From IMG/VR virus record IMGVR_UViG_3300003702_000032, positions 1 through 39,789 of that record: a stretch of 39,789 nucleotides of DNA; one strand, written 5' to 3'. Below are positions 20,636-38,331 of this stretch, in pieces. The position numbers were made by a program, and so were the translations under genes. The DNA is from a virus. Each line of letters starts with the position of its first letter. Within the stretch, counting starts at the first letter, position 1. A model generated the notes under the pieces. That model was not told the origin of the DNA. It saw only the letters and a list, made by a program, of their open reading frames with translations, and searched no databases.

Positions 20636-20850
20636 TTACCTATATCCTTAATGTTAGATTGTGTTATAACTTGATAGGCACCTTTGTTATACGCAGGTGC
20701 GATGGTGTGGTTACTAGTATAATATTTTTTAGGAGGTGTAACAGATCCAACTGTTCGATTATCTAAAGAAGGTATTAAACTCCAAGGACAAACTTTATCT
20801 TCCTTAACTGTTAAACTCTCACAAATTGGATTCATACTAAAGGAAATCAT
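20632..20850 (-). CDS. First gene of the small early-type cluster, unknown function
   Basis: A 72-aa protein with two cysteines (NPICESL, KVCPWSLIP) and a Tyr/Asn-rich C-terminus. No family recognised. The ATG at 20850 is exactly 6 nt beyond the -10 hexamer GATAAT (20857-20862), where transcription should begin, so the message would be leaderless. An internal ATG at residue 6 is possible but has no ribosome site either. It heads a chain of seven overlapping small genes. Confidence 0.55.
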   Translation of the reverse strand: MISFSMNPICESLTVKEDKVCPWSLIPSLDNRTVGSVTPPKKYYTSNHTIAPAYNKGAYQVITQSNIKDIGK

Positions 20851-20856
20851 ATGTAT

Positions 20857-20885
20857 ATTATCTCATATTTGGGATGTAAAGTCAA
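20857..20885 (-). promoter_or_regulatory. Sigma70-type promoter for the 20.85-19.3 kb cluster
   Basis: Minus strand: TTGACT (20880-20885), 17 nt, GATAAT (20857-20862); each hexamer has 5 of 6 consensus bases and spacing is ideal. It lacks the ATCAATGAGTTA upstream motif of the other strong promoters. Expected +1 coincides with the ATG at 20850. Confidence 0.75.
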
Positions 20886-20888
20886 GCA

Positions 20889-21413
20889 TTATCGGACGTT
20901 AATCCAATCTTCCTTTTTGATTCGAGCAAGTTCTTTAAACGAATCGACTTCATATGCCCACCACTTATTAGCGTTTTTGGGATCTCCCGTTTTGCGATCA
21001 AAAGGTATCTTAATAACTCTCATATCCTTGTACGCTCGACGGGGAATATAAAAGTAATATAAACGATTTTGTTTCCTTTCATATATAACCATCCTCAAGG
21101 CACCTTTTTTATTTTTAAATCCCGCCCATTCTAATGATGCTCTATTTTCAGATTTCCATGGTGAGACAGTTAAAAATTTGGCATCCGAATAATCATCAAA
21201 ATCTTCAGACCGGTTGGGGTTGGTATTGACTTTCAACAAGCCGCCAGACTTCTCTATAAGTTGATCTTCTACAATCTTACCTGGAAAGATCCAACCCTTC
21301 TTAACTGCCATCAACAATCCCGGGTCGTTTCTCCACTTGGGTGATAGCACCTCAGGCAACAATGCTTTGACAGCCTTAACTGTCAACGGTTTATCTTCTG
21401 CTTTATAACTCAT
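20889..21413 (-). CDS. 174-aa protein of unknown function
   Basis: The ATG at 21413 is chosen over the longer ORF start (21521) because AAGGAG lies at normal distance and the extra 36 residues cover a structured leader. N-terminal helical part (PLTVKAVKALLPEV, GLLMAVKKGWIFPGKIVEDQ), then a beta-rich part with DYSDAKFLTVSPWKSENR, LEWAGFKNKKGALRMVIYER and RLYYFYIPRRAY. The D...SLEW...K arrangement invites comparison with PD-(D/E)xK nucleases, but this is not secure. It is the gene after the CobS-like ATPase, with a 147-nt structured spacer between, and it ends just before the promoter at 20857. Confidence 0.65.
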   Translation of the reverse strand: MSYKAEDKPLTVKAVKALLPEVLSPKWRNDPGLLMAVKKGWIFPGKIVEDQLIEKSGGLLKVNTNPNRSEDFDDYSDAKFLTVSPWKSENRASLEWAGFKNKKGALRMVIYERKQNRLYYFYIPRRAYKDMRVIKIPFDRKTGDPKNANKWWAYEVDSFKELARIKKEDWINVR

Positions 21414-21560
21414 ATTGTTTCTCCTTGAAGAAAAAAATAAAGGGGTCGGATAGATGTCAGTATTAAAAAATACCAAGAGCCTTTCACAGGAGCCTCTCCA
21501 AGCTTCAGGTTGAGTCCCCAAGTTACCTCAGGGACGAACCCCCCACTAACCAATTGCCGG
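21414..21560 (-). other. Structured 147-nt spacer between the CobS-like gene and the 174-aa gene
   Basis: No gene is supported here. On the minus strand there are several stem-capable segments: AACC..GGTT near the start, GTCCC..GGGAC, GGAG..CTCC, and GTATT-TTTT-AATAC, followed by a pyrimidine/A-rich run and the AAGGAG of the next gene. It may be a processed leader or attenuator. I found no match to a known riboswitch consensus. Confidence 0.35.
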
Positions 21561-22781
21561 TTAGAAAGTATTATTATTCTCCTCGTTGTTGTCGTCCTCA
21601 TCGTCCTCATCATCAGGATCCTGAGTGGCTAGGGTTTCAATATCAACCCCGGCATCCACTTTGGTGTAGAGATCAAGGAAAGTTTCCTTGGTCTCGGAAT
21701 CGAAGCGACTAATGCACATGGCAATAGACTTCAGCTTGTCATCGAAAATGCTAAAGGCACTAACGATATGGACAAGGCGGCGAGTGGAGATAATCTCATC
21801 ACAGGCACCTTCGTAAAATGATTTACGAATAACATCTGCCCATTTGACAAGGTTACCGACATACTCGGAATCCACCAGATCATGTTTCGCCAACTCATTG
21901 GTGAGAATTTTCTCCTCAATCTTGTTGGTGGGATATGTCTGTTCCACGGTAACTGGGAATCTTTCCAAGAAGGATTCATTCATTACATTGGTACCGATAA
22001 ATCGACCATCTTCGGATCCCTGACCCTTGGTGTTCGCTGTTGCTATAATGGTGAATCCCTCAGTGGGATGTACCCATTTGCCAATCTTCTTGAGGTAGAT
22101 TGATGATCCTTCAAGAACTGGCTGAAGGCACATAATCTTATTTGACGCCAGGTCGATCTCATCGAGGAGAAGGACGGCACCTCTTTTCATGGCGGTCACA
22201 ACAGGTCCGTCGTGCCATACTGTCTCACCATTGAGGAGACGGAAACCACCTATCAGGTCGTCCTCGTCGGTCTCTATTGTGATATTGGCTCGGACATATT
22301 CCCGATGTAGACGGGCACAAACTTCCTGAACCATTAAGGTTTTTCCGTTACCGGAAAGTCCCGTGATAAAGAGGGGATAAAAGTTCCCTGATTTAAGGAC
22401 GTCGCGAACCATGTTGAAGTTACCCCACGGGACATACCCGTTAAACTTCTCGGGAGTATAACCTTCATGGTTCTCCATAACACCAACACCAGTGGCGAGT
22501 GCGACAGGCGCCGCTGCTGCAGCTTCAGGAGTTACCAAAGTTTCCACTTTGACATCCTTACCTAAGAGGTATCTGCCATTCTCATTCGGGAGATGATAGA
22601 CACCACGCTTGTCGGTACGAAAATCTGTTCCGACAACCCATTGGGGAAATGTCAGATTTGGATTCTCTTCCAAAACCGCCTGAATCTCAGGACGGGTTAT
22701 GGTAATCTTATCGACACCAAATGTCCCTAGGGCAGCTATAACAAAAGCCTTCCTTTTGGGATTCATTTTACAAACTTTCAT
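21561..22781 (-). CDS. cobS: CobS-like MoxR-type AAA+ ATPase
   Basis: A 406-aa AAA+ ATPase. Walker A is GLSGNGKT (141-148) and Walker B AVLLLDEIDLA (about 204-214), with sensor-type IIATANTKGQGSEDGRFIGT and an arginine in FLERFPV. This is the CobS/MoxR type common in marine T4-like phages. CobS in bacteria is part of the cobaltochelatase with CobT (VWA domain) and CobN. The N-terminal 110 residues are phage-specific, and the C-terminus is an acidic tail (DPDDEDDEDDNNEENN). A VWA protein gene lies 0.75 kb upstream, completing an ATPase/VWA pair. ATAGGAG precedes the ATG. Cobalt insertion versus generic remodelling cannot be decided from sequence. Confidence 0.85.
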   Translation of the reverse strand: MKVCKMNPKRKAFVIAALGTFGVDKITITRPEIQAVLEENPNLTFPQWVVGTDFRTDKRGVYHLPNENGRYLLGKDVKVETLVTPEAAAAAPVALATGVGVMENHEGYTPEKFNGYVPWGNFNMVRDVLKSGNFYPLFITGLSGNGKTLMVQEVCARLHREYVRANITIETDEDDLIGGFRLLNGETVWHDGPVVTAMKRGAVLLLDEIDLASNKIMCLQPVLEGSSIYLKKIGKWVHPTEGFTIIATANTKGQGSEDGRFIGTNVMNESFLERFPVTVEQTYPTNKIEEKILTNELAKHDLVDSEYVGNLVKWADVIRKSFYEGACDEIISTRRLVHIVSAFSIFDDKLKSIAMCISRFDSETKETFLDLYTKVDAGVDIETLATQDPDDEDDEDDNNEENNNTF

Positions 22782-22789
22782 TTTTGCTC

Positions 22790-23059
22790 CTATTGTGCGA
22801 AAATGTTTTCGGAATCAACCCAATAGTTGACACCCGATTTTACTATAACATCAGAATCGGCAGGACTAAATCCTACGATACTAATGTGGGAACTTGGGGG
22901 ATTGTACATGGAACGGGTGTTATCATAAACCGCCTGTTCCAATTCGACGATCAACTGGTCATGGGCTTGGCCCATAATCACGTTTTCGATCACTATGGAA
23001 TCTTGCAGCCAATCTGCCTGATCTTCATAGTCTACCAACAAGTTAATTCTATCTGCCAT
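22790..23059 (-). CDS. Hypothetical protein behind a strong composite promoter
   Basis: An 89-aa acidic protein (MADRINLLVDYEDQADWLQD...), with a hydrophobic helix (SIVIENVIMGQAHDQLIVEL) and a beta-like end. No family recognised. A GGAGATATG ribosome site precedes the ATG, and the promoter at 23105-23133 gives a leader of about 40 nt. It is followed after 8 nt by the CobS-like gene, so it is probably co-expressed with it. Confidence 0.65.
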   Translation of the reverse strand: MADRINLLVDYEDQADWLQDSIVIENVIMGQAHDQLIVELEQAVYDNTRSMYNPPSSHISIVGFSPADSDVIVKSGVNYWVDSENIFAQ

Positions 23060-23104
23060 TTATCATATCTCCTATAAAAGGGCTCAACTTCATTCTATAA
23101 TAGT

Positions 23105-23220
23105 ATTATACCATACTTCCTGGGATGTGTCAAATACCCTCGTAACTCATTGATTTTATTAGGTATTTTTTTAGGACTTTTTTTCATTTTTGGACAGTTT
23201 CCTATTTGTAACTCATTGAT
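23105..23220 (-). promoter_or_regulatory. Composite early-type promoter A
   Basis: Minus strand: TTGACA (23128-23133), 17 nt, TATAAT (23105-23110), both consensus. Nine nt upstream of -35 is ATCAATGAGTTA (23143-23154); 34 nt further is the AAACTGTCCAAA motif (23189-23200), and a second ATCAATGAGTTA (23209-23220). Two other promoters share this layout. A CTGTTG..CAACAG hairpin lies still further upstream (about 23233-23254). Confidence 0.8.
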
Positions 23221-23282
23221 TTGAAAGGCTTTTCCTGTTGTTTTTTTGCAACAGATTTGACTCTTGGATGGGGTCATTTTCT

Positions 23283-23525
23283 TCAAGAATATAAGAATGT
23301 TCTTATATGCTTACACTTCCTACGATAGACGAATCCGGGGCATGAACAATCGACCCTGGATCCCCGTTTGGAGAGAGTGTAGATATTATTCCCAGATCCC
23401 TGTATCTTGTACGTCTTAATAGGGGGAAGTGGAGTGGGATGTTTGCTACTAGCCTCTACGAGTGCCATTTGTGTGCGAGACCACTGCTGAGCCTCTTTCA
23501 AAATTCTTTCAAGTATCATATCCAT
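23283..23525 (-). CDS. SWIM zinc finger protein
   Basis: An 80-aa protein if started at the ATG at 23525; the longer reading from 23540 begins at TTG. The C-terminal part has a SWIM-type finger: C-S-C, eight residues, C-K-H (DCSCPGFVYRRKCKHIRTF), preceded by YKIQGSGNNIYTLSKRGSRV, the usual beta segment. SWIM fingers bind DNA or protein and occur with SWI2/SNF2 and MULE-type proteins. It follows the VWA gene immediately and precedes promoter A. The partner is unknown. Confidence 0.7.
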   Translation of the reverse strand: MDMILERILKEAQQWSRTQMALVEASSKHPTPLPPIKTYKIQGSGNNIYTLSKRGSRVDCSCPGFVYRRKCKHIRTFLYS

Positions 23526-23527
23526 AA

Positions 23528-25948
23528 TTAAGTTATCCAATTCATCAGGCGGTCGACTAATACTCGACTACCAAATTTCTGATTGAGGGATTTCGCGAAT
23601 ACTCGCTTAATCTTTGAGGCACTCCAATTCTCTTCCACTTTATAAGGAACATTGGTGTCCATTTGCATCTTACTAGTGGGCATAATGTAATACTCATCAA
23701 AGCCGGAAGTTGTAATCGTCGCAAAACCGTCACGACGGATTTCCTTACGCTTCTTTTGATGGGCTTCCTTATTGAAGCTGTGCCATCCCAGATAACGCTC
23801 AAGAATTTGGCGGCTTACCCGAGGTCCGCTCGAAAGATAGATACCCACATTATTGATATCGTAACGATCCTTTAAAAGGGTCAGTAGAAAGATACACTGT
23901 GCCTCTCCTTTACGAACCCAAGGAGTATCACGGTTACCCCGTCCCATAAACCCACTAACATTATAGTGCTTACGGGAAATAGGATCTTCATAAATCACTT
24001 TGTCTGCCATACCCCATGATATGTGACCAGGATGCACATCGGTTCCCTTATAAATCTGTTGCAATTCACTGTTAGGTTCACCATCGGTAAGGGTAATAAG
24101 ATTCACCTTATCCAATTTGTATTCTCTTTTGAAATTCGGGATTATCTGCTGCATCGCCAACAGGGCTTCTACCGTGGGGGTTGATCCCATCGAATACTGC
24201 TTATAGTTGGCTCCCGTATAGTAATCCTTGTGAGCGAATCCATACCGATACAGGTTCTTAGACTGTCGGGTCATTTCCGATGCCGTCATTCTAGAGGACA
24301 TCAGGTTCAAGAGGTTAAAGTGGGACGAACCCTGAAACATGGCATCACCATACTTGTAAGTAAACGATCCATAGGATTTCATAACTTCCCGAATCTCTGC
24401 TGCTGTCATGCTAGCGATCTCGGGAGTCCTCCAGTAACTGTTCGTATAGGCATACACCTCAAACGGGATATTGACCTTTTGACAGAACCATACCAGATTG
24501 AGAATCTGCTTAAGGGTGTCGTGCATCTGGTAATACATAGATGCCGACCAATCAACCAACATAATCAACCCGTGATTCTTACCATCCGGGATGAGAGTCT
24601 TTTTAAGGAAGATATCGTCATTATAGCGATACTGGTGAATCTTATTGACATCAAGGACACCAGTCTTAGCGACGGTCTGCCGTCTATAGACCTCAGCCGC
24701 CTTCTTACGTTCAAATTCCTTCGCCATGTAGTTTACGATCTTCCGAGACGAGGAACGAAACTTATCGTATTCCTGATCCGCCTCTAACAATCCGTTGGGA
24801 CGAGAGTCCTCAAAGCACTTCAGGTTCTCTGCGTTTAATTCCTTAATCACCTTCTTATAAGGGATGATCATGGATTTCAAGTTAGCTTTAGGAAGCCCGA
24901 TATACTGATAGGCGTCCTTAGAGTCTTCCACAAGTTCCTGCTTCCGATTCTCCCAAGTATCTTCGGTGATGAATTCGTCATCCTCCTCGATCTTGTGTTT
25001 TTCGGGATCAAAGTCCCCAGAGTCAAACGTAGACGATTCGCCCGGGTCCCCTTCTCGCTCATCTCCTTTATCGAGTGAACCTTCCGAGGATTCCGAATTT
25101 TCATCATTTTCTTCACCATCTCCAGGTACTTGGATGGATACATTACCACCATCCTCTACACTATACCAATCCCTATCACGGTCATCCAACATGGTATTTG
25201 CTTCTTCAGTAAATGCGATCTGGAGGAGCTTGGAGACTTCGACAACATCCTCGAAGGATTCACAGTCTGCTACCAGATCCACATATTCTTGCTCGTCATC
25301 CTCAAAAGGAATACCAGCCAGAGTTCCTAACTTAAAAAATAAATTAATTCTGTCAATGAAGCTAAGAGTAGAGAGAGGATCATCTCCGAAAAAACCACGT
25401 TCAAAGAGTTCCTTGTAACCAGACAGAAACGGCTTAATAATGCCAGGATACTTCCGTTTGATCTTTTTCTCTATACGAGCATCCTCAACGATATTGAGAA
25501 TACCCTTGTGTACACCTTCATCAATGGCATCGTGCCACTTGTCAGGTAGGGTGTAGAGGGCGTGTCCAACTTCGTGACCCGTTAGCATGTCTATGATGTC
25601 GGATGTCATGTCCGCCCAAACTGGTAGGGTTAGGACACGGTCCTTGACATCAAATGAAGCAGTACTAGCATTACCCGAATGGCGGACGTGTATGTCCTCC
25701 ATTGCTAAGAGTTTAGCCAGTTGGTCTTTTGTTTGATTCTGGGTCATTATCATATAATCACATAAAGGAGGACGGACATCCCAACGAGAAGCGTCCAAAT
25801 GACCAGTCTGTTCTCGGCATCTTGGAAGGTCCATCCATTCAAAAAGGTATTCCGACGGAAAAAATTCTGGTCGGAATTTCTGGAAAAGGTTTTCATATCT
25901 ATATATACTTCCCTCATTGAGATTGTATCCCTTTGAAGGGCTGGGCAA
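23528..25948 (-). CDS. VWA-domain protein with HExxH metallopeptidase motif (CobT-like)
   Basis: Up to 806 aa. A zinc-metallopeptidase-type motif H125-E-V-G-H129 lies in LTGHEVGHALYTL, followed by NIVEDARIEKKIK, as in phage 'peptidase' proteins paired with CobS. An acidic linker (about 265-335) precedes a helical region, then a VWA domain from about 466 with MIDAS D-W-S-A-S (LVDWSASMYY) and later TDGEPNS. CobT-like and MoxR-partner proteins share acidic linker plus VWA. The start is uncertain: the ORF begins with TTG at 25948 and the first in-frame ATG is at 25834 (residue 39); neither has a clear ribosome site. Base composition is richer in G+C than the baseplate genes. Confidence 0.8.
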   Translation of the reverse strand: MPSPSKGYNLNEGSIYRYENLFQKFRPEFFPSEYLFEWMDLPRCREQTGHLDASRWDVRPPLCDYMIMTQNQTKDQLAKLLAMEDIHVRHSGNASTASFDVKDRVLTLPVWADMTSDIIDMLTGHEVGHALYTLPDKWHDAIDEGVHKGILNIVEDARIEKKIKRKYPGIIKPFLSGYKELFERGFFGDDPLSTLSFIDRINLFFKLGTLAGIPFEDDEQEYVDLVADCESFEDVVEVSKLLQIAFTEEANTMLDDRDRDWYSVEDGGNVSIQVPGDGEENDENSESSEGSLDKGDEREGDPGESSTFDSGDFDPEKHKIEEDDEFITEDTWENRKQELVEDSKDAYQYIGLPKANLKSMIIPYKKVIKELNAENLKCFEDSRPNGLLEADQEYDKFRSSSRKIVNYMAKEFERKKAAEVYRRQTVAKTGVLDVNKIHQYRYNDDIFLKKTLIPDGKNHGLIMLVDWSASMYYQMHDTLKQILNLVWFCQKVNIPFEVYAYTNSYWRTPEIASMTAAEIREVMKSYGSFTYKYGDAMFQGSSHFNLLNLMSSRMTASEMTRQSKNLYRYGFAHKDYYTGANYKQYSMGSTPTVEALLAMQQIIPNFKREYKLDKVNLITLTDGEPNSELQQIYKGTDVHPGHISWGMADKVIYEDPISRKHYNVSGFMGRGNRDTPWVRKGEAQCIFLLTLLKDRYDINNVGIYLSSGPRVSRQILERYLGWHSFNKEAHQKKRKEIRRDGFATITTSGFDEYYIMPTSKMQMDTNVPYKVEENWSASKIKRVFAKSLNQKFGSRVLVDRLMNWIT

Positions 25949-25975
25949 TACTAGTGTCGTTTTCCCTTTAAGGGT

Positions 25976-26035
25976 CTACCAGACTACTCTAAGGATCACT
26001 ATGACCCATAGAATAAGGAAAATAGATTCTATCAT
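25976..26035 (-). CDS. Possible 19-aa hydrophobic micro-protein
   Basis: ATG at 26035 overlaps the TGA of the 104-aa gene (ATGA), TAG at 25976-25978. The peptide is a single hydrophobic stretch (IFLILWVIVILRVVW at the end), long enough to span or lie in a membrane. Chance is a real alternative at this length; it is listed because four other tiny membrane ORFs here sit in the same kind of overlap. Confidence 0.3.
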   Translation of the reverse strand: MIESIFLILWVIVILRVVW

Positions 26036-26346
26036 CTGCGAGTACTGCGACGGCCGCGACGTGGCCTATCTGTTGTTACAGTGCCACCGACTAAGCGGGG
26101 AACACTGTAACGGCCATCGAGATTCCAACGGTGTGTCATCTCGCCCGACATATCAATACGCTCTACGGAGAGAGGTGTATCAAAGCCGCCTTTGTGTAAG
26201 TTAAAAGAAGCAACGGCGTCCATCAGTGTGGCCACCTTAGCTTGATATAAGCGATTGCCGCCTAATAGGGGCTCGCGATAGAACACCTTAAACATTCCCA
26301 TATCTAGAGTAATGGGGGTTCCGGTGTTGCCATATAGTGATTTCAT
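26032..26346 (-). CDS. Hypothetical protein with basic tail
   Basis: A 104-aa protein. The central part (FKVFYREPLLGGNRLYQAKV, ASFNLHKGGF) has alternating beta-like segments; the C-terminus is very basic (DRPRRGRRSTRR), suggesting nucleic acid binding. No family recognised. AAGAGA precedes the ATG by 8 nt. Composite promoter B is upstream, giving a leader of about 90 nt. It lies before the VWA/CobS block and may share its transcript. Confidence 0.6.
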   Translation of the reverse strand: MKSLYGNTGTPITLDMGMFKVFYREPLLGGNRLYQAKVATLMDAVASFNLHKGGFDTPLSVERIDMSGEMTHRWNLDGRYSVPRLVGGTVTTDRPRRGRRSTRR

Positions 26347-26442
26347 ATTGATCTCTTAAAAAGTGCCCTTTGCAGTAATCTCTTGGATTCTAGTCTAATC
26401 AGATAGACGCCAGTAAGGGCTAATCTCTATTCTTGAAACATC

Positions 26443-26537
26443 ATTATACCACACTTTGGGGCCTCTGTCAAATACCCTCATAACTCATTGATATATAAAG
26501 GTTTTATATATGTGTCGAATAGACGGTTTGGACAGTT
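26443..26537 (-). promoter_or_regulatory. Composite early-type promoter B
   Basis: Minus strand: TTGACA (26466-26471), 17 nt, TATAAT (26443-26448). ATCAATGAGTTA is at 26481-26492 (9 nt upstream of -35) and AACTGTCCAAA at 26527-26537 (34 nt further), the same spacings as promoter A. The flanking sequences GTATTTGACA and CCAAAGTGTGGTATAAT are also shared with other copies. Confidence 0.8.
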
Positions 26538-26685
26538 GGGCTCCATGTGTTGCTTTTATACAACAAGAAAAGGCTTATATAACAATGACTTAGGAGCCTG
26601 TGATAGGCCTAAGGAACTATAAGGCGCTGCTATCATATAGGGCTTTGTCATAAGGGTCTATATAGGGTCTCTATATAAGGGTTCT
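26538..26685 (-). repeat. Gene-free stretch with a hairpin and short tandem repeats
   Basis: No gene is supported. It contains an inverted repeat CTTAG-GA-GCCT..AGGC-CTAAG (26589-26613), a reverse-oriented near copy of the promoter-upstream motif (AACAATGACTTA on the plus strand, 26581-26592), a GTTG..CAAC hairpin (about 26559-26576), and, just after the 58-aa gene stop, several imperfect copies of ACCCTATATAG on the minus strand (about 26630-26682). The hairpin lacks a T-run, so termination is uncertain. Confidence 0.45.
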
Positions 26686-26862
26686 CTAATTGATCTGTAC
26701 TAAAGGGATATTGACATCTGCCTCTAAAAGCCCTATATGCTCCTCGAGTGTCTCAACCTCTACCACAAGCTCAGCCACATACATACAGAAATTATCAAGG
26801 TCTTCCTCTGACTCTATATCATTGATTTTGGCGAATGCCTTAAGGACTGCTACTGTTATCAT
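26686..26862 (-). CDS. 58-aa acidic helical protein under promoter D
   Basis: ATG at 26862, TAG at 26686-26688. Acidic and helical (KAFAKINDIESEEDLDNFCM, YVAELVVEVETLEEHIGLLE), likely a helical hairpin or coiled coil. GGAG lies 6-7 nt before the ATG, and composite promoter D is about 45 nt upstream. The coherent acidic composition, ribosome site and dedicated promoter support a real gene. No family recognised; a small protein that binds a host target is a guess. Confidence 0.65.
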   Translation of the reverse strand: MITVAVLKAFAKINDIESEEDLDNFCMYVAELVVEVETLEEHIGLLEADVNIPLVQIN

Positions 26863-26909
26863 ATGGGGTCTCCATGTGAAATCAAGGTAATACTCGATTC
26901 CATACTAAT

Positions 26910-27015
26910 AATATAACATATTTTGGGGTCCTTGCGAAGCGTTATTTTAACTCATTGATATATAAAGGATTTCAGAGACTTTCTCAAGTGCACGTATTCT
27001 CAGTTTGGACAGTTT
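26910..27015 (-). promoter_or_regulatory. Composite early-type promoter D
   Basis: Minus strand: TTCGCA (26933-26938), 17 nt, TATATT (26910-26915), weaker hexamers than copies A and B. ATCAATGAGTTA is again 9 nt upstream of -35 (26948-26959). AAACTGTCCAAA is at 27004-27015, 44 nt beyond it, one helical turn more than the 34 nt in A and B. It should drive the 58-aa gene. Confidence 0.65.
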
Positions 27016-27184
27016 GGGTTTTGGGGGACTCGCGTGGTGAGCCACTGCCATACCCTTGGAAATCCCTTGACATCCGATATAGTATAGATAAAGTCCGGCA
27101 AACGGCACGCAATAGACCAAAAAGGTAACACGATACAACACTATACTACACTTTTCAACACCTTTATTCGCATTTTACGCCACA
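27016..27184. other. Region without a convincing gene
   Basis: Between the promoter D motifs and the 97-aa gene. A minus-strand frame of 64 codons (26947-27141) starts at GTG, has no good ribosome site and runs through the promoter motifs; I do not accept it. No terminator with a T-run is visible. Confidence 0.3.
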
Positions 27185-27478
27185 TCAGGAACGCGATCTA
27201 TTGTTATACCTATCTAACAGTATATCCCAAGTTTCTCTAATCTTTTCTGTAGGAGACTCCTCTCTACCATCATATGGACTATAGCACCATTCGGATCTAT
27301 GACGTCCTTGGGAGTCTAGTGTAGCTTTTTTGTTATCGGCTATATACTCTTTACTCTCAGAAGGTTTAATGTACCCTTTGACACGTGCTGCATAATACTC
27401 TCTCATCTCAAAATCAAGGTGAGTTTCGTGCTTCAGCTTACGGTATCGAACCGCTGTTTTCAACTTATCACTAATCAT
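27185..27478 (-). CDS. Hypothetical protein
   Basis: A 97-aa basic protein (MISDKLKTAVRYRKLKHETH...), rich in R, K, E and Y, with a helix at the C-terminus (EKIRETWDILLDRYNNRSRS). No family recognised. Its start lies within the end of the 57-aa basic gene (8-nt overlap). Last gene of the chain running from 28487. Confidence 0.6.
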   Translation of the reverse strand: MISDKLKTAVRYRKLKHETHLDFEMREYYAARVKGYIKPSESKEYIADNKKATLDSQGRHRSEWCYSPYDGREESPTEKIRETWDILLDRYNNRSRS

Positions 27479-27644
27479 AATATGTGTTCCCTTCAGGTGA
27501 CCTTATAGCACCTCTCTTAGGTTTCTTTTGTTTCTTCTTTTCTTTCCTCGGTGATCTCTCTTTGGCTATCATGTTATCTACATGGTCCATAAGACGTTTT
27601 CTTTGTTTGTCAGTTGCATTTAAATAATAATCTATTAGTTTCAT
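27471..27644 (-). CDS. 57-aa Lys-rich protein
   Basis: ATG at 27644, TAG at 27471-27473. The N-terminus is helical (MKLIDYYLNATDKQRKRLMD, HVDNMIAKER), the middle a Lys/Arg block (RKEKKKQKKPKR), the end GAIRSPEGNTYYD. The start overlaps the TGA of the 68-aa gene (ATGA), and the stop overlaps the 97-aa gene. Composition suggests nucleic acid binding. No family recognised. Confidence 0.6.
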   Translation of the reverse strand: MKLIDYYLNATDKQRKRLMDHVDNMIAKERSPRKEKKKQKKPKRGAIRSPEGNTYYD

Positions 27645-27847
27645 CTTTTGGATTTCCCATTTAATAATTTGTTCACTCGTCTATCAAGGATAGGATTAGG
27701 CAAGTCGGCCTTCATTTCAAGGTATCTCTTTCTGATCTTGAGGTATCGTTTGGACTCTATGAACCGTTGTAGGCCTGAGCCATATAGGAATCGTAGGTCG
27801 TCTATTGTTTCTCGGTATCTGGCGTACACTCGATCACGGAGGATCAT
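27641..27847 (-). CDS. Small Arg/Tyr-rich hypothetical protein
   Basis: A 68-aa strongly basic, helical protein (RDRVYARYRETIDDLRFLYG, then KRYLKIRKRYLEMKADLPNP and a GKSKR end). No family recognised. It overlaps the neighbours on both sides by 4 nt (ATGA), so translation is coupled in the chain. Confidence 0.6.
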   Translation of the reverse strand: MILRDRVYARYRETIDDLRFLYGSGLQRFIESKRYLKIRKRYLEMKADLPNPILDRRVNKLLNGKSKR

Positions 27848-28125
27848 AGCATATCGTCGAGGTCATTTAGTCCAGAGTGTTCTCCTACTGCTGGTTGACT
27901 TTTCTGTAGACGGTCACGTTCCTTTAGCAGATCATTGAACTGCTCATCACAATCGGACACTGGTGTAGGGTAGTTTCTTAGCTGCTCAAGGATGTCACTG
28001 AGTTCCCTGTGCTTGGATGGCACAGTGATGTACCCTTCATAAAAATCATCCGTTGGTGTTGTAGGCATTATGCTCCCTACGGCACTTGTATAACTGGCTT
28101 TAGCTTTCATCATCTTCTTCTGCAA
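27844..28125 (-). CDS. Hypothetical protein
   Basis: A 93-aa protein. Basic N-terminus (MQKKMMKAKASYTSAVG), then DDFYEGYITVPSKHRELSDI and a helical region with LLKERDRLQKSQP, ending acidic (GLNDLDDML). No family recognised. It overlaps the 69-aa gene upstream by 26 nt; an internal start at residue 6 or later is possible. Confidence 0.55.
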   Translation of the reverse strand: MQKKMMKAKASYTSAVGSIMPTTPTDDFYEGYITVPSKHRELSDILEQLRNYPTPVSDCDEQFNDLLKERDRLQKSQPAVGEHSGLNDLDDML

Positions 28126-28309
28126 TATTTATCTTGGTGATATCATACCCTAGGTCAGTCACCATCTTCTTAACCTCTCGTTTGGATTGGTCAGTGGTAA
28201 CTAAATGAGCGAGGATCTCTTCCCCTTTCACCTTACAGAACACCTCATAGGTGGGTGATTTAGTCTCATCTGCCTTAGCATGCAACCATCGTTGTGGTAA
28301 ATTCTTCAT
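28100..28309 (-). CDS. Hypothetical protein
   Basis: A 69-aa protein with a strand-helix-strand look (YEVFCKVKGEEILAHLVTTD, KREVKKMVTDLGYDITKINI) and an acidic end (AEEDDES). No family recognised. It begins 4 nt after the stop of the two-helix membrane gene. Confidence 0.6.
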   Translation of the reverse strand: MKNLPQRWLHAKADETKSPTYEVFCKVKGEEILAHLVTTDQSKREVKKMVTDLGYDITKINIAEEDDES

Positions 28310-28313
28310 ATCA

Positions 28314-28487
28314 TCACAACATCGTCAACAAGCCGTACATCAATACAACAAATCCTAACATTCCCAGTATACCTAGTGCAAACAAGCCTATAGTCCCTCC
28401 GATTATCTTTATTGATCGTATAGGATGTCGGATCAAATAGAACACAACAAACCCAACGATAAAGACAACGATAATTAGTTCAATCAT
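28314..28487 (-). CDS. 57-aa two-helix membrane protein
   Basis: ATG at 28487, TGA at 28314-28316. Two hydrophobic segments, about residues 3-19 (ELIIVVFIVGFVVFYLI) and 27-53 (KIIGGTIGLFALGILGMLGF and onwards), joined by a short basic turn (RHPIRS). This is a helical-hairpin inner-membrane protein; holin, superinfection exclusion and channel roles are all possible. No family recognised. It heads the small-gene chain to 27185 and lies below a possible promoter overlapping a palindrome. Confidence 0.65.
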   Translation of the reverse strand: MIELIIVVFIVGFVVFYLIRHPIRSIKIIGGTIGLFALGILGMLGFVVLMYGLLTML

Positions 28488-28536
28488 AATAAGTGCAGGT
28501 GTAGAGAGGCCACCTCGTAGCGGTAGTCGCGTCGGT

Positions 28537-28568
28537 CAGTATCCTAGGATACTGGCGTAGATTGTCAA
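28537..28568 (-). promoter_or_regulatory. Perfect 18-bp palindrome overlapping a possible promoter
   Basis: CAGTATCCTAGGATACTG (28537-28554) is a perfect palindrome. On the minus strand a consensus -35 TTGACA (28563-28568) lies upstream, with GATACT inside the palindrome as a poor -10 at 19-nt spacing. Operator-over-promoter is plausible; the promoter itself is weak. The rest of the 168-nt gap 28488-28655 holds no gene that I can support. Confidence 0.4.
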
Positions 28569-28655
28569 CCTCACATCCGTTCCGTCGAACAGTGTTAGAT
28601 CGGTGACACATCCCACGACCTCTCCGAACCCCTACCCTGGCTAGGAACTACCCCC

Positions 28656-29090
28656 TTACCAAGGAACCTGCGAGGTCCATTGTTCACAATAATACTGCTT
28701 TGGATCTCGGTGTGACACTGCACAATCGAAAACCTTGTTCTTAAACTGAAACCATGACTGCCATCCTGTCTTAACAAGAAAACGCCAGCTATCCCAACTA
28801 AAACGACGGTCTAAAATGTGACCTCGTTCTACAATCACCTGAGCCTCATCACCATATACCTCAATAGGGTAATAGTGATACGGTGGTTGCGGTGCAGGCG
28901 GTAATGTAACATCAAAAGACCAACAAAATGAGTTGTCCTTGTTACATCCACCGAACGAACTGCTACCCCCACCCCCATACGGTGGGTCATAGTGACTCGT
29001 ATTCGGGTTTTGTAACTGCCAAGCTGCAGCCGTACCCATTGTCATCGTAAAGACTAACAAGCCTACGCCGATTTTACGCCAATTCTTCAT
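28656..29090 (-). CDS. Small exported protein with signal peptide
   Basis: A 144-aa protein from the ATG at 29090; the reading can extend to 29114, but the shorter start puts the basic end next to the hydrophobic core. Signal peptide: MKNWRKIGVGLLVFTMTMGT then AAA, probable cleavage before WQLQNPN. The mature part is Pro/Gly/Tyr-rich (DPPYGGGG, LPPAPQPPYHYYP), has four Cys (GGCNKDNSFCW, FDCAVSH, YYCEQW) that could form two disulfides, and several Trp. No family recognised. An exported role during infection (envelope modification, lysis or exclusion) is inferred. It overlaps the 59-aa gene by 17 nt. Confidence 0.65.
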   Translation of the reverse strand: MKNWRKIGVGLLVFTMTMGTAAAWQLQNPNTSHYDPPYGGGGSSSFGGCNKDNSFCWSFDVTLPPAPQPPYHYYPIEVYGDEAQVIVERGHILDRRFSWDSWRFLVKTGWQSWFQFKNKVFDCAVSHRDPKQYYCEQWTSQVPW

Positions 29091-29253
29091 CATACTCCTC
29101 TGGTGCATTGGCAAATGTCACCAAGTCACCGAATTTTGCTTTGAACACACGCAGGAGATTGTTATAACCCCCGGACATCATCTCAGTCCGCATGGCACTA
29201 AACTCATAAAATGCATTGCCATCTGGACCCTGCAAATCTATTACTCTACTCAT
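29074..29253 (-). CDS. 59-aa hypothetical protein
   Basis: ATG at 29253, TAA at 29074-29076. Begins MSRVIDLQGPDGNAFYEFSA, then MMSGGYNNLLRVFKAKFGDL and an acidic end (APEEYDEELA). Compact and globular in composition. Start overlaps the TGA of the 36-aa membrane peptide (ATGA), end overlaps the exported protein gene. No family recognised. Confidence 0.6.
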   Translation of the reverse strand: MSRVIDLQGPDGNAFYEFSAMRTEMMSGGYNNLLRVFKAKFGDLVTFANAPEEYDEELA

Positions 29254-29360
29254 TCCATAATTCCCGGGTAGAACCCTTCAATAATTATGATACACACCAT
29301 TCCGATATATACCGACGTAAGAAAAGCAACCTCAATTACTTTTTTCAATCTTTTTACCAT
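29250..29360 (-). CDS. 36-aa single-span membrane peptide
   Basis: ATG at 29360, inside the end of the 130-aa gene; TGA at 29250-29252 overlaps the next ATG. Basic N-terminus MVKRLKK, then a hydrophobic span (VAFLTSVYIGMVCIIII) and a short polar end. The +K/R-then-span layout fits an N-in membrane peptide. It fills the gap between two genes with overlaps at both ends, which supports translation. Confidence 0.45.
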   Translation of the reverse strand: MVKRLKKVIEVAFLTSVYIGMVCIIIIEGFYPGIME

Positions 29361-29724
29361 TAACCTGGACCTCATTCCACGTTATCTCGTTCCTTTTGAG
29401 GATCTCATCACCAAGGGCAGCATATACGAGTTCCACACCAAGGTGCGTCTTGGCACCAATGTGCCACATATACTTACCACGTCTGGCATCGTCCGGACTG
29501 ACTTCTTTCCAATCATAGATTGTTATATCAACCAGATCCCATTCGTCCTCAGCGACGTTACCCATTTCAAAAGTAACGCCCCACTCGTTCCAGACCTTGT
29601 CACTGGCAGGTATGTTAGGCTCTCCAAACACTGTCACCAGTGTATCATAAGAAGCCATCACCTTACCTCGTAAAGAGGTACCTGCAGCAAACAGGTCATT
29701 TGGTTTCCATGTTAAACTTGACAT
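29332..29724 (-). CDS. Hypothetical protein
   Basis: A 130-aa protein (MSSLTWKPNDLFAAGTSLRG...) with Trp-rich beta-like segments (WNEWGVTFEMGNVAEDEWDL, VDITIYDWKEVS, KYMWHIGAKT) and a short C-terminal helix. The pattern resembles small conserved proteins of marine phages, but no family is named. Start overlaps the previous stop by 1 nt (TAATG). Confidence 0.65.
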   Translation of the reverse strand: MSSLTWKPNDLFAAGTSLRGKVMASYDTLVTVFGEPNIPASDKVWNEWGVTFEMGNVAEDEWDLVDITIYDWKEVSPDDARRGKYMWHIGAKTHLGVELVYAALGDEILKRNEITWNEVQVNGKKIEKSN

Positions 29725-30077
29725 TAGAAACGGGGTCCTCGCAGATAGTTTGCGCCATGTTCGTTGACTCGGTCTGCACCCAAGTCATCGGCGAAAATGT
29801 TACCACGTACACCCTTGGGTGCGGGGGCTGACCAACTGGCAGATTTCAAAATGTCACCGTTGAGCATATTCACAAAAGTATGGACAGACCGGCTACCATT
29901 CAAGTCATCGACCTTAATGATGCGGGCATACTTCTTGCCGTACATCGGGACAACGGTAGGTGGATCTGAGAAGGTAAACTCTTGGATCTTCCAATAATGG
30001 TTGTTTTTCTCTTGGACCATATCAACATACTGGTCCAAACGTACTTGCATATCGCAAGGGTTAATTTCAAGGGTCAT
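29724..30077 (-). CDS. Conserved-looking phage hypothetical protein
   Basis: A 117-aa protein from the ATG at 30077; the longer reading to 30149 overlaps the previous gene by 71 nt and is less likely. The C-terminal half has SVHTFVNMLNGDILKSASWS, APAPKGVRGNIF and GANYLRGPRF, a pattern I associate with a small family widespread in phages (residue type, gene length and Y-L-R end), function unknown. It sits in a chain with TAATG-type junctions. Confidence 0.65.
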   Translation of the reverse strand: MTLEINPCDMQVRLDQYVDMVQEKNNHYWKIQEFTFSDPPTVVPMYGKKYARIIKVDDLNGSRSVHTFVNMLNGDILKSASWSAPAPKGVRGNIFADDLGADRVNEHGANYLRGPRF

Positions 30078-30078
30078 A

Positions 30079-30339
30079 TCATTCCTCTGAATGTGTACCA
30101 TGATAAGGGTTAGGATCATCGTCATATCGACCTTGGTCATAATCCTCATACTGCAAACTACTTATATGGTGATGGTAAGCGTCCATCTCCTCTCGGGATT
30201 GGTCATCTATGGCTCCACAGACTGAACATTCCATAAGAGGCTCCTCTTCCCATTTACCTGGATGAGGTCCCAAATCTTCAAAACACGCATCGCACAAGAT
30301 CAAGGTCTTGGACTCTAGGTGTTTATATATTCTAGGCAT
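30079..30339 (-). CDS. Four-cysteine zinc-ribbon-like protein
   Basis: An 86-aa protein with C-D-A-C (about residues 16-19) and C-S-V-C (38-41), spaced as in zinc ribbons, followed by a His/Asp/Tyr-rich acidic tail (YHHHISSLQYEDYDQGRYDD). No family is named. The ATG overlaps the stop of the sigma region 4-like gene (TAATG), so the two are probably made together. A regulator or adaptor is a guess. Confidence 0.6.
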   Translation of the reverse strand: MPRIYKHLESKTLILCDACFEDLGPHPGKWEEEPLMECSVCGAIDDQSREEMDAYHHHISSLQYEDYDQGRYDDDPNPYHGTHSEE

Positions 30340-30617
30340 TAAACTGTCTCCACAAAATCGCTAAAGACTAATCCACGTTTCTTCAAAATATTTCCCAAAG
30401 CCCTCACTGCACGAAATTCTGTTTGCCGGATACAGGATGATGTAACACCCCACCACTCGGCCAATTCTTTATATGTCACCGGCTCCGGCAACATGCGGGC
30501 TTTAAGGATCATCATCCTACGACCTTTATTACGTTGGGGAATCAAGTTCCAACCGATATCATAATCAAGGTCATCTAAACATTCTTCCAAAAGCTCTAGG
30601 CTCTGCCAAGATATCAT
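30339..30617 (-). CDS. Sigma region 4-like helix-turn-helix protein
   Basis: A 92-aa protein. The C-terminal half, PVTYKELAEWWGVTSSCIRQ then TEFRAVRALGNILKKRGL (about residues 46-83), follows the sigma70 region 4.2 pattern: TYKELAE...GVT..x.IRQ.E..A.RAL. The N-terminus is an acidic helix and RNKGRRMMILKARM. No region 2 for -10 binding, so it cannot be a full sigma factor. It may bind DNA at -35 elements or compete with host sigma. It follows the gene driven by promoter C after 12 nt. The fold call is by pattern; function is inferred. Confidence 0.65.
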   Translation of the reverse strand: MISWQSLELLEECLDDLDYDIGWNLIPQRNKGRRMMILKARMLPEPVTYKELAEWWGVTSSCIRQTEFRAVRALGNILKKRGLVFSDFVETV

Positions 30618-30629
30618 TATCTATTACCG

Positions 30630-30983
30630 TTATACGTCATAACCAAGTGCCCTAAATCTTAGAGCAAAAGGTTTATAAGTTTTACCAGCTGGCTTCATCG
30701 CCTTGGCTACTGCCATGTGATGGTCAGCCATCTCCTGTTGACGGCGTGCCTCTTCAGCTCGTTCCCGTTCGACTGATGCAACTACCTCGTCCTCAAGGGA
30801 CTTGGCTTCGGCACGGAGGTCCTCAACAGACCACTCACGCAAATCCCACCAGCGTGGGCGGAAACCATTGACAGCCTTAAAGGTGTCTGAGATATAGGTT
30901 GCGAGATCGACCCGCTCTTGATCCTCGTCTGAGGTATCAATCGTCTGGGTCCAGCCTGGTGCAAATGTCATTTCAATTTTCAT
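30630..30983 (-). CDS. Charged hypothetical protein with a probable leaderless mRNA
   Basis: A 117-aa protein from the ATG at 30983. An upstream in-frame GTG (31001) lies within the promoter spacer and is rejected. N-terminus MKIEMTFAPGWTQTID, a Trp-rich middle (FRPRWWDLREWSVEDLRAEA), a long charged helix (VASVERERAEEARRQQEMAD), and a basic end (KPFALRFRALGYDV). No family recognised. The ATG is 6 nt past the -10 of promoter C, so transcription should start at or next to it. Confidence 0.65.
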   Translation of the reverse strand: MKIEMTFAPGWTQTIDTSDEDQERVDLATYISDTFKAVNGFRPRWWDLREWSVEDLRAEAKSLEDEVVASVERERAEEARRQQEMADHHMAVAKAMKPAGKTYKPFALRFRALGYDV

Positions 30984-30989
30984 ACTACT

Positions 30990-31070
30990 ATTATACCACA
31001 CTTTGGGTCCTGTGTCAAGCCGTAACCTATTGATTTATATGGGTTTTTCCTGGGTTTGTAAGTCATTGAT
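30990..31070 (-). promoter_or_regulatory. Composite early-type promoter C
   Basis: Minus strand: TTGACA (31013-31018), 17 nt, TATAAT (30990-30995), perfect consensus, with the same CCAAAGTGTGG spacer end as promoter B. Variants of the upstream motif lie at 31023-31034 (ATCAATAGGTTA, 4 nt from -35) and 31059-31070 (ATCAATGACTTA). No AACTGTCCAAA element was seen. Expected +1 falls on the ATG at 30983. Confidence 0.8.
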
Positions 31071-31084
31071 TTATAATGGAAAAG

Positions 31085-31171
31085 TTATGTCTTAAAAGTG
31101 ACTCTTTCGTGTCTCTTTACGACATAATAGGATCCATCACCCTTTTCGATCTCAATACATAAGTATAACAC
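31085..31171 (-). CDS. Possible tiny gene or gene remnant
   Basis: The frame ending at TAA (31085-31087) reads like protein: YLCIEIEKGDGSYYVVKRHE then RVTFKT. From the only usual start in frame, GTG at 31171, it gives 28 aa with no good ribosome site; the coding look extends some 13 codons further upstream. It may be the tail of a decayed gene or a very small one. The rest of 31088-31233 contains only short inverted repeats (CTCT..AGAG inside CAGTC..GACTG). Confidence 0.25.
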   Translation of the reverse strand: MLYLCIEIEKGDGSYYVVKRHERVTFKT

Positions 31172-31233
31172 ACGTGGAAGCTCACTGGATGAGTCCCTAG
31201 AGTATATAATCAGTCTCTTATATTAGAGTATTA

Positions 31234-31461
31234 TTATTGACTGATGAGAGTTTGTAGGTTTGATTTGATCTCCTCGATTTCGTCTTTAAGGTGGAGCTTG
31301 TTCATTTTAAGAGCTTTTATTTTTTGATCATTTTTGTGACCTATCTTTTGGTAATAATTGTATAGGTCGGTAATCTCTTTGTCTAGTTTTCTGTGTTGGT
31401 CTACAAGGCGGTTATAGAGGTTTGTTATATCTTCTACAATTATACTATTAGAATTTGTCAT
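31234..31461 (-). CDS. DUF465/YdcH-like coiled-coil protein
   Basis: A 75-aa all-helical protein. The pattern LVDQHRKLDKEITDLYN then KIKALKMNKLHLKDEIEEIK matches the DUF465/YdcH layout (L..eHr.Ld.eI......i..LK..KL.LKDEI), a small family common in proteobacteria, especially alphaproteobacteria. Function of the family is unknown. ATTAGTCTCC on the plus strand, i.e. GGAGACTAAT, provides the ribosome site. Presence in a phage suggests capture from a proteobacterial host; that is inference. Confidence 0.6.
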   Translation of the reverse strand: MTNSNSIIVEDITNLYNRLVDQHRKLDKEITDLYNYYQKIGHKNDQKIKALKMNKLHLKDEIEEIKSNLQTLISQ

Positions 31462-31472
31462 ATTAGTCTCCT

Positions 31473-31676
31473 TTAAATGTCATTATATCCCATAGATTCA
31501 GCGCCCAGTTTGGTAAATTGTTCCATCTCAAAATCGTCTTTTCCTGCACCACAATCTGGACACACCCAATCTTCTGGTACATCTTCCCATCGAGTTCCAG
31601 GTTTAATTCCATCTTCTGGCCACCCTTCTTCTTCATCATAAATCCATCCACATATGATGCATATATACATCTTCAT
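31473..31676 (-). CDS. Rubredoxin
   Basis: A 67-aa protein from the ATG at 31676, which overlaps the TGA of the SufT-like gene (ATGA); the longer frame to 31727 is rejected. Rubredoxin motifs: [36 protein letters not shown] and GAGKDDFE, with the four iron-binding Cys in C-x2-C and C-x2-C, spacing of a classical 50-55-aa rubredoxin plus a short C-terminal extension. It carries single electrons at low potential in the cytoplasm; possible partners here are Fe-S assembly or oxygenase/halogenase chemistry, which is inference. Confidence 0.9.
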
Positions 31677-32002
31677 AGTAGGCCCATCTGCAATTTTGTA
31701 TGAGAAGGGATCATGTCTGGACCCCACTGTGGTTCAAATGTCATTTCTACATCTACTATATCTACGTCTGGCACTTCACAAGCTTGCTTGACTTCTTTAT
31801 ATAACTGATCTCCTACCGGACAAAATGCAGAAGTCAAGGTCATGGTCACCTTACAGTATCTCTCATCTAACCAAATCTCATAGATCAATCCGAGATCGTA
31901 TACGTTGGTAGGGATTTCAGGATCATATACTCGGCGCAGATTAGCAACAATCTTATCTACCGTAGGATTCTCTCCCTCCATATATTGTTCAACGTGTGTC
32001 AT
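31673..32002 (-). CDS. SufT/MIP18-family Fe-S assembly factor
   Basis: A 109-aa DUF59/MIP18 (SufT, PaaD-like) protein. Motifs: [20 protein letters not shown], the family hallmark DPE-P-x5-DLGLI, and [16 protein letters not shown] with the conserved Cys, then [19 protein letters not shown]. The family helps deliver or mature Fe-S clusters. It lacks the SufT N-terminal extension and is close to the PaaD/MIP18 core length. It lies between the HAD gene and rubredoxin, in the same operon as SufB. Confidence 0.88.
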
Positions 32003-32006
32003 ACCA

Positions 32007-32366
32007 TTAACCTAATCCAACTTCTTCCCAATCTATATCATTCCACCCTTCATCTCTAGGTACATTTACAGCATGAGCTTTTACCCTAGGTCCAACATCA
32101 TTTATCAATACTCTACCACCGTCTGCATAACCCATCAAAAGTATATCAAACGGTATACCTAATCTTCGGAGTTCTGATTCTGTTCTTTCTCTTACCGATT
32201 CACGACGACCTGTTATTAGTATGATGTTATGTCCCTGTGCTTCCCACGACTTCATACGTTCTAGAACCCCCGGCAACAGCTTATGTTCTTTGCTCACTAT
32301 TCCCAAATGTCCCAAACCTGTATACTCTGTTAAAGTTCCATCAATATCACAAATAATAGTTTTCAA
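32007..32366 (-). CDS. HAD-family phosphatase
   Basis: A 119-aa HAD-superfamily hydrolase. Motif I CDIDGTLTEY (D7xD9), motif II NIILITGRRESVRERTE, and a short C-terminal region with LINDVGPRVKAHAV. This is the small capless type often found in phages, related to polynucleotide kinase 3'-phosphatase-like or KdsC-like proteins. The substrate cannot be told. The motif IV acid pair is reduced (IND), and no cap domain is present. It is adjacent to the CxxC membrane protein (start 32366/stop 32367). Confidence 0.8.
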   Translation of the reverse strand: MKTIICDIDGTLTEYTGLGHLGIVSKEHKLLPGVLERMKSWEAQGHNIILITGRRESVRERTESELRRLGIPFDILLMGYADGGRVLINDVGPRVKAHAVNVPRDEGWNDIDWEEVGLG

Positions 32367-32687
32367 TTAATGCATCTCATGGCCATGATTTAAATGATGT
32401 TGAGTTGCAATAGCTTCCCAATTCATAGCATACACTACTACGGTTGCTATCGCTGCACCCACAATAATGCCTTGTGTAAATCGTTTAATAGTCTTCCAAT
32501 TCTTTGCTCGTTGCTCAGGACTAAAGGCTTTCCATTTTTGGTAACCCTTATGAAACTTCCACATAGAGTAGGCAGTAAGGACTACAGCCAATCCTATCAA
32601 CCATGGTGTATACGGACTGTCTATAGCCAGTACACCCATGCCAATCAGAAAGGCAATCAGTCCGTTAATCCAACATATCGGGCACAT
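32367..32687 (-). CDS. Membrane protein with N-terminal CxxC and His-rich tail
   Basis: A 106-aa protein beginning [20 protein letters not shown]. Three hydrophobic spans: about residues 6-22, 28-42 and 70-88 (GIIVGAAIATVVVYAMN), with a basic loop between. The C-terminus is QHHLNHGHEMH. The CxxC plus His tail suggests metal (iron or copper) or redox handling, which would suit the neighbouring Fe-S genes; that is inference. The start overlaps the SufB stop by 1 nt. No family recognised. Confidence 0.7.
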   Translation of the reverse strand: MCPICWINGLIAFLIGMGVLAIDSPYTPWLIGLAVVLTAYSMWKFHKGYQKWKAFSPEQRAKNWKTIKRFTQGIIVGAAIATVVVYAMNWEAIATQHHLNHGHEMH

Positions 32688-34111
32688 TATCCTACTGACC
32701 CCTCCATTGAAATCTCTAGTAACTTGTTTGCCTCAACTGCAAACTCCATAGGCAGCTTAGAGAATATGTCCTTACAAAATCCATTCACAATAAGATTCCT
32801 TGCATCTTCAGGACTAATGCCTCGTTGCTGACAATAAAACAATTGGTCCTCACTAATCTTTGATGTAGTAGCCTCATGTTCTACTGTCGCTGTGTTATTC
32901 TTGCACTCTATATATGGGTTAGTATGAGCTCCACACTCATCACCCATCATCAAGGAATCACATTGCGTATAGTTCTTAGCATTGTCTGCCCCTTTACCAA
33001 TCTTCACCAGGCCTCTGTATGTGTTATTGCCATGACCGGCTGAGATACCCTTAGAGATAATCGTGGATGTAGTATTCTTTCCTATATGATACATCTTAGT
33101 GCCGGTGTCTGCCTGTTGGTAGTTACCAGTAAAGGCAACAGAATAGAACTCACCCACACTTTCATCGCCTTGTAATATACACGACGGATACTTCCATGTA
33201 ATGGCACTACCTGTCTCTACCTGTGTCCAGGTGATCTTACTGCGGTAGCCTTTACACTTACCACGCTTAGTAACAAAATTGAAGATGCCGCCTTTACCAT
33301 CTTTGTCGCCTGGATACCAGTTCTGCACAGTTGAATACTTGATCTCTGCATTGTCTAAGGCGACTAGCTCAACGATAGCCGCATGGAGTTGGTTCTCATC
33401 ACGCATTGGTGCAGTACAGCCTTCTAGATAAGATACAGACGAACCTTCATCTGCGATTATCAATGTCCGTTCAAACTGTCCTGTGTCCTCACTGTTGATT
33501 CGGAAATAGGTACTGAGTTCCATCGGGCATTTTGTATTCTTGGGGATGTATGCAAAACTACCATCACTGAATACTGCGCTATTCAATGCAGCGAAATAAT
33601 TATCACTCTGTGGAACGACACTGCCGAGGTACTTCTTCACCAGTTCTGGATACTTCTCTACTGCATCACTAAAACTGCAAAACAAGATACCCATCTCCTC
33701 TAACTTGGCAGCGAATGTTGTACCCACACTGACACTATCGAATACTGCATCTACTGCCACATTCAATAACTTCTCTCGCTCTCGTAAAGGGACTCCTAGT
33801 TTCTCAAAATCATCAAGGATCTCTTGTGGTACTTCATCTATGCTATTATACTTCTTCTTCGGTCTAGAAAAATAAATGATGTCCTGATAGTCTATCGTGG
33901 GGTATGTTATGTTAGGCCAATGTCCAGGCTCTTCCATTTTGAGCCAACGCTGATACGCCTTCAGTCTCCAATCGAGTAACCATTGGGGCTCATTCTTCTT
34001 CTCACTGATGGCTGTAATGACTTGTTCATTGAGGCCAGGTGGAAACTGTTCCATCTCCACATCTGTTGTGAAACCATACTTGTATGGTTCTGCTGTATTA
34101 ATGTATGTCAT
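32687..34111 (-). CDS. sufB: Fe-S cluster assembly scaffold SufB
   Basis: A 474-aa SufB (E. coli about 495 aa). N-terminus [20 protein letters not shown], then [19 protein letters not shown]. The C-terminal beta-helix/core has [17 protein letters not shown] (with the conserved scaffold Cys), [37 protein letters not shown]. SufB normally works with SufC (ATPase) and SufD to build Fe-S clusters; neither is in this window, so the phage protein probably joins host SufC/D. It is complete with all recognisable conserved blocks. The ATG overlaps the stop of the oxygenase gene upstream by 4 nt. Confidence 0.95.
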
Positions 34112-34776: not shown

Positions 34777-34807
34777 ATTTCAATGACCTTGTCGTGGACA
34801 TTTTTCA

Positions 34808-35377: not shown

Positions 35378-35392
35378 AATTTTGATAGCGTG

Positions 35393-35794: not shown

Positions 35795-35796
35795 TG

Positions 35797-36045: not shown

Positions 36046-36047
36046 TT

Positions 36048-37874: not shown

Positions 37875-37877
37875 ATA

Positions 37878-38296: not shown

Positions 38297-38331
38297 GTTT
38301 AGTCCTCATGTTTAGGTTAACTCCTCTCGTA

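Follow-up and report, generated by a model that had tools for sequence, protein, structure and literature searches.

Probable IHF-Assisted Sigma-70 Promoters in an Uncultured Virus Genome

Introduction

The lambda pL promoter is a strong early sigma-70 promoter with an upstream site for the host integration host factor (IHF), which brings distal DNA to RNA polymerase; an IHF bend over the polymerase has been proposed (Giladi 1998 and related literature, as far as they are cited in PMC2753651). In glpFK activated by IS5, an IHF site together with an adjacent permanent bend activates transcription in a phase-dependent manner (PMC2753651). The early promoters of phage T4 have a near-perfect −35, TGn, and −10 and a strong upstream region, and the middle promoters of T4 use MotA/AsiA (PMC2988021). 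Composite early promoter modules, the mobile early-promoter stem-loop (PeSL) cassettes, recur in T4-type phages (Arbiol 2010 and Comeau 2014, as cited in PMC4503421). Middle promoters of pelagimyophages and of phage Melnitz could not be identified with known motifs (PMC7029224, PMC9004378). In this study, four composite promoters (A, B, C, and D) were analyzed in IMG/VR virus record IMGVR_UViG_3300003702_000032, positions 1 to 39,789. This whole stretch of 39,789 bases, with 39% GC, is called the window.

Each of the four promoters combines a sigma-70 core with a site of the IHF consensus WATCAANNNNTTR, and A, B, and C carry a further upstream element, RAAYTGTCC. The sequence evidence suggested that A–D are very probably sigma-70 promoters, presumably of the early class, at which host IHF assists through helically phased DNA bending. 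A dedicated MotA-like system was not supported, because the motif is an IHF consensus accompanied by a separate conserved RAAYTGTCC element.

The window promoters resemble lambda pL, as that promoter is described in PMC2753651, in having a strong sigma-70 core, an upstream IHF site, and distal DNA that may reach the polymerase. They differ from it in having the IHF site at 4 or 9 nucleotides (nt) from −35 (centre about −46 to −51), RAAYTGTCC at −96 or −106, and a layout common to several promoters of one genome. With IS5-activated glpFK they share A-tracts adjoining the site and a predicted IHF- and phase-dependent activation, whereas the glpFK site is transposon-made and much further upstream (about −215) (PMC2753651). 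T4 early promoters are similar in core, strong upstream region, and phage type, but their upstream region is described as an UP element for the C-terminal domain of the polymerase alpha subunit (alpha-CTD), while that of the window consists of an IHF consensus and RAAYTGTCC (PMC2988021). T4 middle promoters also have a motif upstream of −10; however, the MotA box at −30 replaces −35 (PMC2988021), whereas −35 is perfect at three of the four window sites and the motif is centred at −46 to −51. IHF-assisted phage promoters are a type already known from lambda pL. The literature searched, which did not include Arbiol 2010, Comeau 2014, or the majority of subscription papers, contained no description of IHF-phased promoters for this group of phages.

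Promoter Cores and IHF-Type Sites

Promoter-like sigma-70 sites were scanned in positions 20000–39789 and compared with shuffled sequence. The total of 59 hits showed no excess over the shuffles (55.0), so only perfect cores stood out. Among these hits, only A, B, and D had 12/12 cores, each with TGn, and three of the four sites thus carried the near-consensus −35, TGn, and −10 of T4-type early promoters. The cores, all on the minus strand, were TTGACA-17-TATAAT at 23105–23133 (A, predicted start about 23098), 26443–26471 (B, predicted start about 26436), and 30990–31018 (D, predicted start about 30983). The core of C (26910–26938, minus strand, predicted start about 26903) was TTCGCA-17-TATATT with TGn. 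A sequence-only reading had described all four as near-consensus with 17-nt spacing; this held for A, B, and D, while C, at 9/12, was weaker than claimed.

The same reading placed a ATCAATGAGTTA-type motif exactly 9 nt from −35 at three sites, and this distance was confirmed for A, B, and C; in D it was 4 nt. The motif extended by one base, AATCAATGAGTTA, fits the IHF consensus WATCAANNNNTTR, as do all six sites of this type in the window. IHF bends DNA by up to 180 degrees (PMC8942017), and IHF binding in or near −40 to −60 is described (PMC4496709). The proximal sites on the minus strand were AATCAATGAGTTA in A (23143–23155, an exact match at about −45 to −57), TATCAATGAGTTA in B (26481–26493) and in C (26948–26960), and AATCAATAGGTTA in D (31023–31035, −40 to −52). 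Distal sites on the same strand were present in A (23209–23221, about −111 to −123) and in D (AATCAATGACTTA, 31059–31071, 36 nt from the proximal site). A second motif had been assigned to A and C; it was found in A, whereas C had none and the other second copy belonged to D. Tandem IHF-type sites 35–37 nt apart were the commonest tandem spacing, seen in D of the window and in the phage records G002, G005, G008, G011, G013, and G014.

From the IMG/VR matches listed for AATCAANNNNTTA ahead of perfect promoters, 91 deduplicated sites of other phages, none of them from the window, went into a scoring matrix. The AATCAANNNNTTA query dictated the fixed letters of this matrix, but neither its centre and flanks nor the phasing. 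The six sites were the six highest in the window, with scores of 30.4 (A proximal), 25.1 (A distal), 24.8 (D proximal), 24.6 (D distal), 18.3 (B), and 15.5 (C). The seventh, at 10.5, was a possible weak inverted distal site of B in the B/C intergenic region (TAACAATGACTTA, 26580–26592, plus strand, one departure from the consensus). All others scored 8.7 or less. Loose matches (up to two mismatches) occurred at chance level (10 against 7.8 and 18 against 15.1); the signal lies in exact matches and placement, both of which were nonrandom.

When lambda attP was scored with this matrix, AATCAACTACTTA, TATCAATATATTA, and TATCAATTTGTTG were among the top four matches; we take them to be the H2, H1, and H' sites. 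Two of the three exceeded the 95% shuffle level, which the presumed H' match did not reach. The 5' flank of 94 sites in other phages (among the matches listed) was A-rich at −10 to −14 with a dip at −6 to −9, and the window flanks agreed with this profile by eye. The lambda H' site has a 5' flank of this kind. The IHF consensus was kept where the central palindrome TCAnTGA breaks, as in the D proximal site ATCAATAGG and in L176 ATCAATCACTTA. A divergent promoter in TTTGGACAGTT was considered and rejected, no −10 being seen by eye.

Helical Phasing in Other Phages

The distance from the motif to −35 was investigated in 93 deduplicated IMG/VR sites of other phages, among the matches listed. Thirty-eight sites were at 4–9 nt, 26 at 16–17 nt, and 8 at 25–26 nt, with almost none at 10–13 nt. 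The Rayleigh R peaked at a period of 9.5–10 nt (0.435 at 10 nt, p about 2e-8), whereas a scrambled-motif control gave p of about 0.17 at period 10. The distances of the two scans are comparable, their totals of listed matches are not. The sequence-only reading was supported in that A–D form a real promoter family with fixed helical geometry; across other phages, the phasing shows statistically the helical-phase dependence expected of IHF-assisted sigma-70 promoters.

A motif-blind set was also examined, consisting of 183 strong promoter-like sites in relatives' loci picked by protein similarity. The consensus lay within 80 nt upstream in 6 of the 183, against 0.89 expected, and 2 of 500 permutations reached 6. 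This excess is modest, and many such sites are probably in coding DNA.

In the proposed mechanism, host IHF would bind AATCAATGAGTTA-type sites centred about 51 nt before the start (about 46 in D) and bend the DNA sharply, folding upstream DNA back to RNA polymerase. The distance to −35 would be set by helical phase. Through this bend, the RAAYTGTCC of A, B, and C (−96 or −106) would come close to the polymerase, and it may provide a distal contact for alpha-CTD or bind a second regulator. Activation, rather than repression, is the predicted outcome of IHF occupancy.

Orthologous Promoters in Related Phages

Orthologs of promoters A, B, and D precede the same genes in diverged relatives, with the architecture preserved. 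All window genes named here are on the minus strand. Downstream of A are an 89-aa gene (22790–23059) and a CobS-like AAA+ gene (21561–22781). Their orthologs in L190 (77% and 83%) are preceded by an orthologous promoter with AATTGTCCAAA; upstream of the TGTCC element of L190 lies AATCAATAGGTTA, a distal IHF consensus in inverted orientation. In L188, AAACTGTCC was found upstream of the CobS promoter. B precedes a 104-aa gene (26032–26346) and a CobT-like gene (23528–25948), and L575 has the orthologous promoter with AATTGTCC before the orthologs of both (56% and 43%). D precedes a gene listed at 30630–31001, whose true start is likely the ATG near 30971, and then a sigma-region-4-like gene (30339–30617). 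In G005 (L577), the ortholog of the first of these (62%) stands behind a weaker promoter with three IHF sites, which are spaced at 35 and 37 nt. A 58-aa gene (26686–26862) lies downstream of C.

A scan of bacterial genomes for the architecture gave 37 stretches in 257 billion bases, of mixed taxa and some of them probably due to chance. The uncultured Alphaproteobacteria L544, L550, L556, L561, L569, and L574 share an IHF-type site 26 nt before TTGACA-17-TATAAT, which is perhaps a host promoter.

The RAAYTGTCC Element

AACTGTCCAAA occurred exactly three times in the window, once upstream of each of A, B, and C. The three copies are exact matches on the minus strand at 23189–23199 (A, about −91 to −101), 26527–26537 (B), and 27004–27014 (C, −101 to −111), the copy of C lying 10 nt farther upstream than those of A and B. 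The spacing of 34, 34, and 44 nt upstream of the IHF-type motif, noted in the sequence-only reading, was thereby borne out. Equivalents lie at the same distance in L190 and L575, and the gap from AAYTGTCC to the IHF core is an identical 33 nt in A, B, L190, and L575. This identical gap is a stronger point than the counts. Exact AAYTGTCC occurred 2 times against 0.02 expected, with a consensus picked after L190 had been viewed, and AACTGTCCAAA at mismatch level 1 was present in 1 of 10 relative regions, as in 22 of 2000 shuffles. No pairing of AACTGTCCAAA with exact ATCAATGAGTTA was found elsewhere in the viral collection; the relaxed AAYTGTCC was present in relatives. G005 (L577), like D, is without exact AAYTGTCC.

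RAAYTGTCC is a separate conserved element, possibly with a dedicated factor. A more specific model is tentative and rather unlikely: a phage-encoded regulator would use the element as its operator, giving a looped, IHF-flanked nucleoprotein switch at A-, B-, and C-type promoters, while D, which lacks the element, would be constitutive. One candidate regulator would be the 92-aa sigma-region-4-like protein encoded by the second gene behind D (30339–30617, minus strand). It had a weak match to sigma-70 region 4 (22.3 bits, cut-off 24.1) and PDB matches to sigma factors with E of 0.06–0.9. A search of relatives did not find it, and as the RAAYTGTCC regulator it is no more than a lead.

Two TGTTG-N8-CAACA inverted repeats, the sole two in the window, lie upstream of A and B (23236–23253 and 26548–26565). 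A TGTTG-CAACA hairpin was rejected as a group-wide element, its frequency in relatives being 39 against 1–41 for other arms.

Genomic Setting and Promoter Class

The first 19 kb of the window encode T4-like structural proteins (gp8-like, gp6-like, and baseplate hub/lysozyme). These are followed by the CobS/CobT-like pair and many small genes. The gp6-like protein was nearest to those of Pelagibacter phages Mosig and HTVC008M and Methylophilales phage Melnitz, all Kyanoviridae, at about 50% identity. Megablast of the window against named phages gave no match, and neither did an Rfam search of the window. The phage is probably T4-like and related to Kyanoviridae.

TATAAATA boxes of the T4 late promoter type were found on the minus strand at 331, 8586, and 18189, where they precede the structural-region genes 7–264, 7112–8557, and 17221–18171. 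Unlike these boxes, A–D all lie within the accessory-gene region. Because of this location, A–D are probably of the early class, a timing read from gene location only.

A tRNA-Asn (GTT) gene lies inside the structural region (18221–18309, minus strand). A tryptophan-halogenase-like protein (36756–37874) and two 2-oxoglutarate (2OG)-Fe(II) oxygenases (34108–34776 and 34808–35377) are encoded on the minus strand.

Alternative Explanations

The sequence-only reading had proposed a dedicated activator, perhaps a MotA-like factor. On this explanation, ATCAATGAGTTA is bound by a phage activator and resembles the IHF consensus by accident. Of the six window copies, 4 share the centre TGAG, a greater uniformity than IHF requires, and the imperfect palindrome TAAnTCAnTGAnTTA would suit a dimeric activator; this palindromic centre, however, is lost in the D proximal site and in L176, and a dimer site was rejected. 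MotA boxes are centred at −30 in place of −35, whereas A, B, and D have a perfect TTGACA and the window motif has its centre at −46 or −51; the MotA-like factor was rejected because of this position and the intact −35. The motif also precedes promoters both in phages with a detected T4-like gp6 and in phages where none was detected; its centres vary there, while WATCAA and TTA, letters set by the query, are fixed. The recovery of lambda attP sites by the matrix argues for IHF as well. PF09114, the MotA activation domain, was not found in 15 mostly partial records including the window, in a search whose control gave no match either. A phage activator at this motif is improbable.

The shared sequences might instead be recent copies of one PeSL-like promoter cassette, with their conservation coming from copying and not from a role of each part. 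A and B are 78% identical across 63 nt, a 25-nt stretch of B recurs in C at 96% identity, both A and B have the upstream TGTTG...CAACA repeat, and PeSLs have been described from T4-like phages (PMC4503421, with reference to Arbiol 2010 and Comeau 2014). Nevertheless, the copies have retained elements and distances despite divergence of the sequence in between, and the promoters of orthologs at 53% (CobT) and 56% (104-aa protein) identity keep the same set. In the present small alignment, conservation was confined to the elements. The elements may have spread by copying, but selection must keep them; copying as the whole explanation is highly improbable. Another possibility is that IHF binds these sites with its main role elsewhere, for example in packaging, replication, or repression, so that their proximity to promoters would be of secondary importance. 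Recombination and replication employ IHF as an architectural protein, and it can also act as a repressor; against a main role elsewhere stand the helical phasing to −35 across phages, the one or two sites per promoter, and the orthologous sites before the same genes. A main role elsewhere was the least likely of the explanations weighed.

Several points count against IHF-assisted activation itself. The IHF consensus is short and AT-rich, and IHF can also repress. The sites are predicted from the sequence. The phasing test assumes independent sites, some of which possibly come from related phages; the peaks persisted in 66 sites at a stricter cut. HTVC008M, Mosig, and Melnitz-3 showed no motif above control. 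No IHF/HU gene was found in the phage records, most of which are partial; a phage-encoded protein was accordingly rejected, and the result fits host IHF but proves nothing.

Conclusions

IHF phasing provides a rule, applicable to sequence, by which probable early promoters can be recognized in an uncultured marine relative of the pelagimyophages and Melnitz and in many other environmental phages. The conserved RAAYTGTCC element is a concrete target in the search for a new regulator. If the assignment to host IHF is true, these phages would lean on a DNA-bending protein of the host, which may have a bearing on their host dependence.

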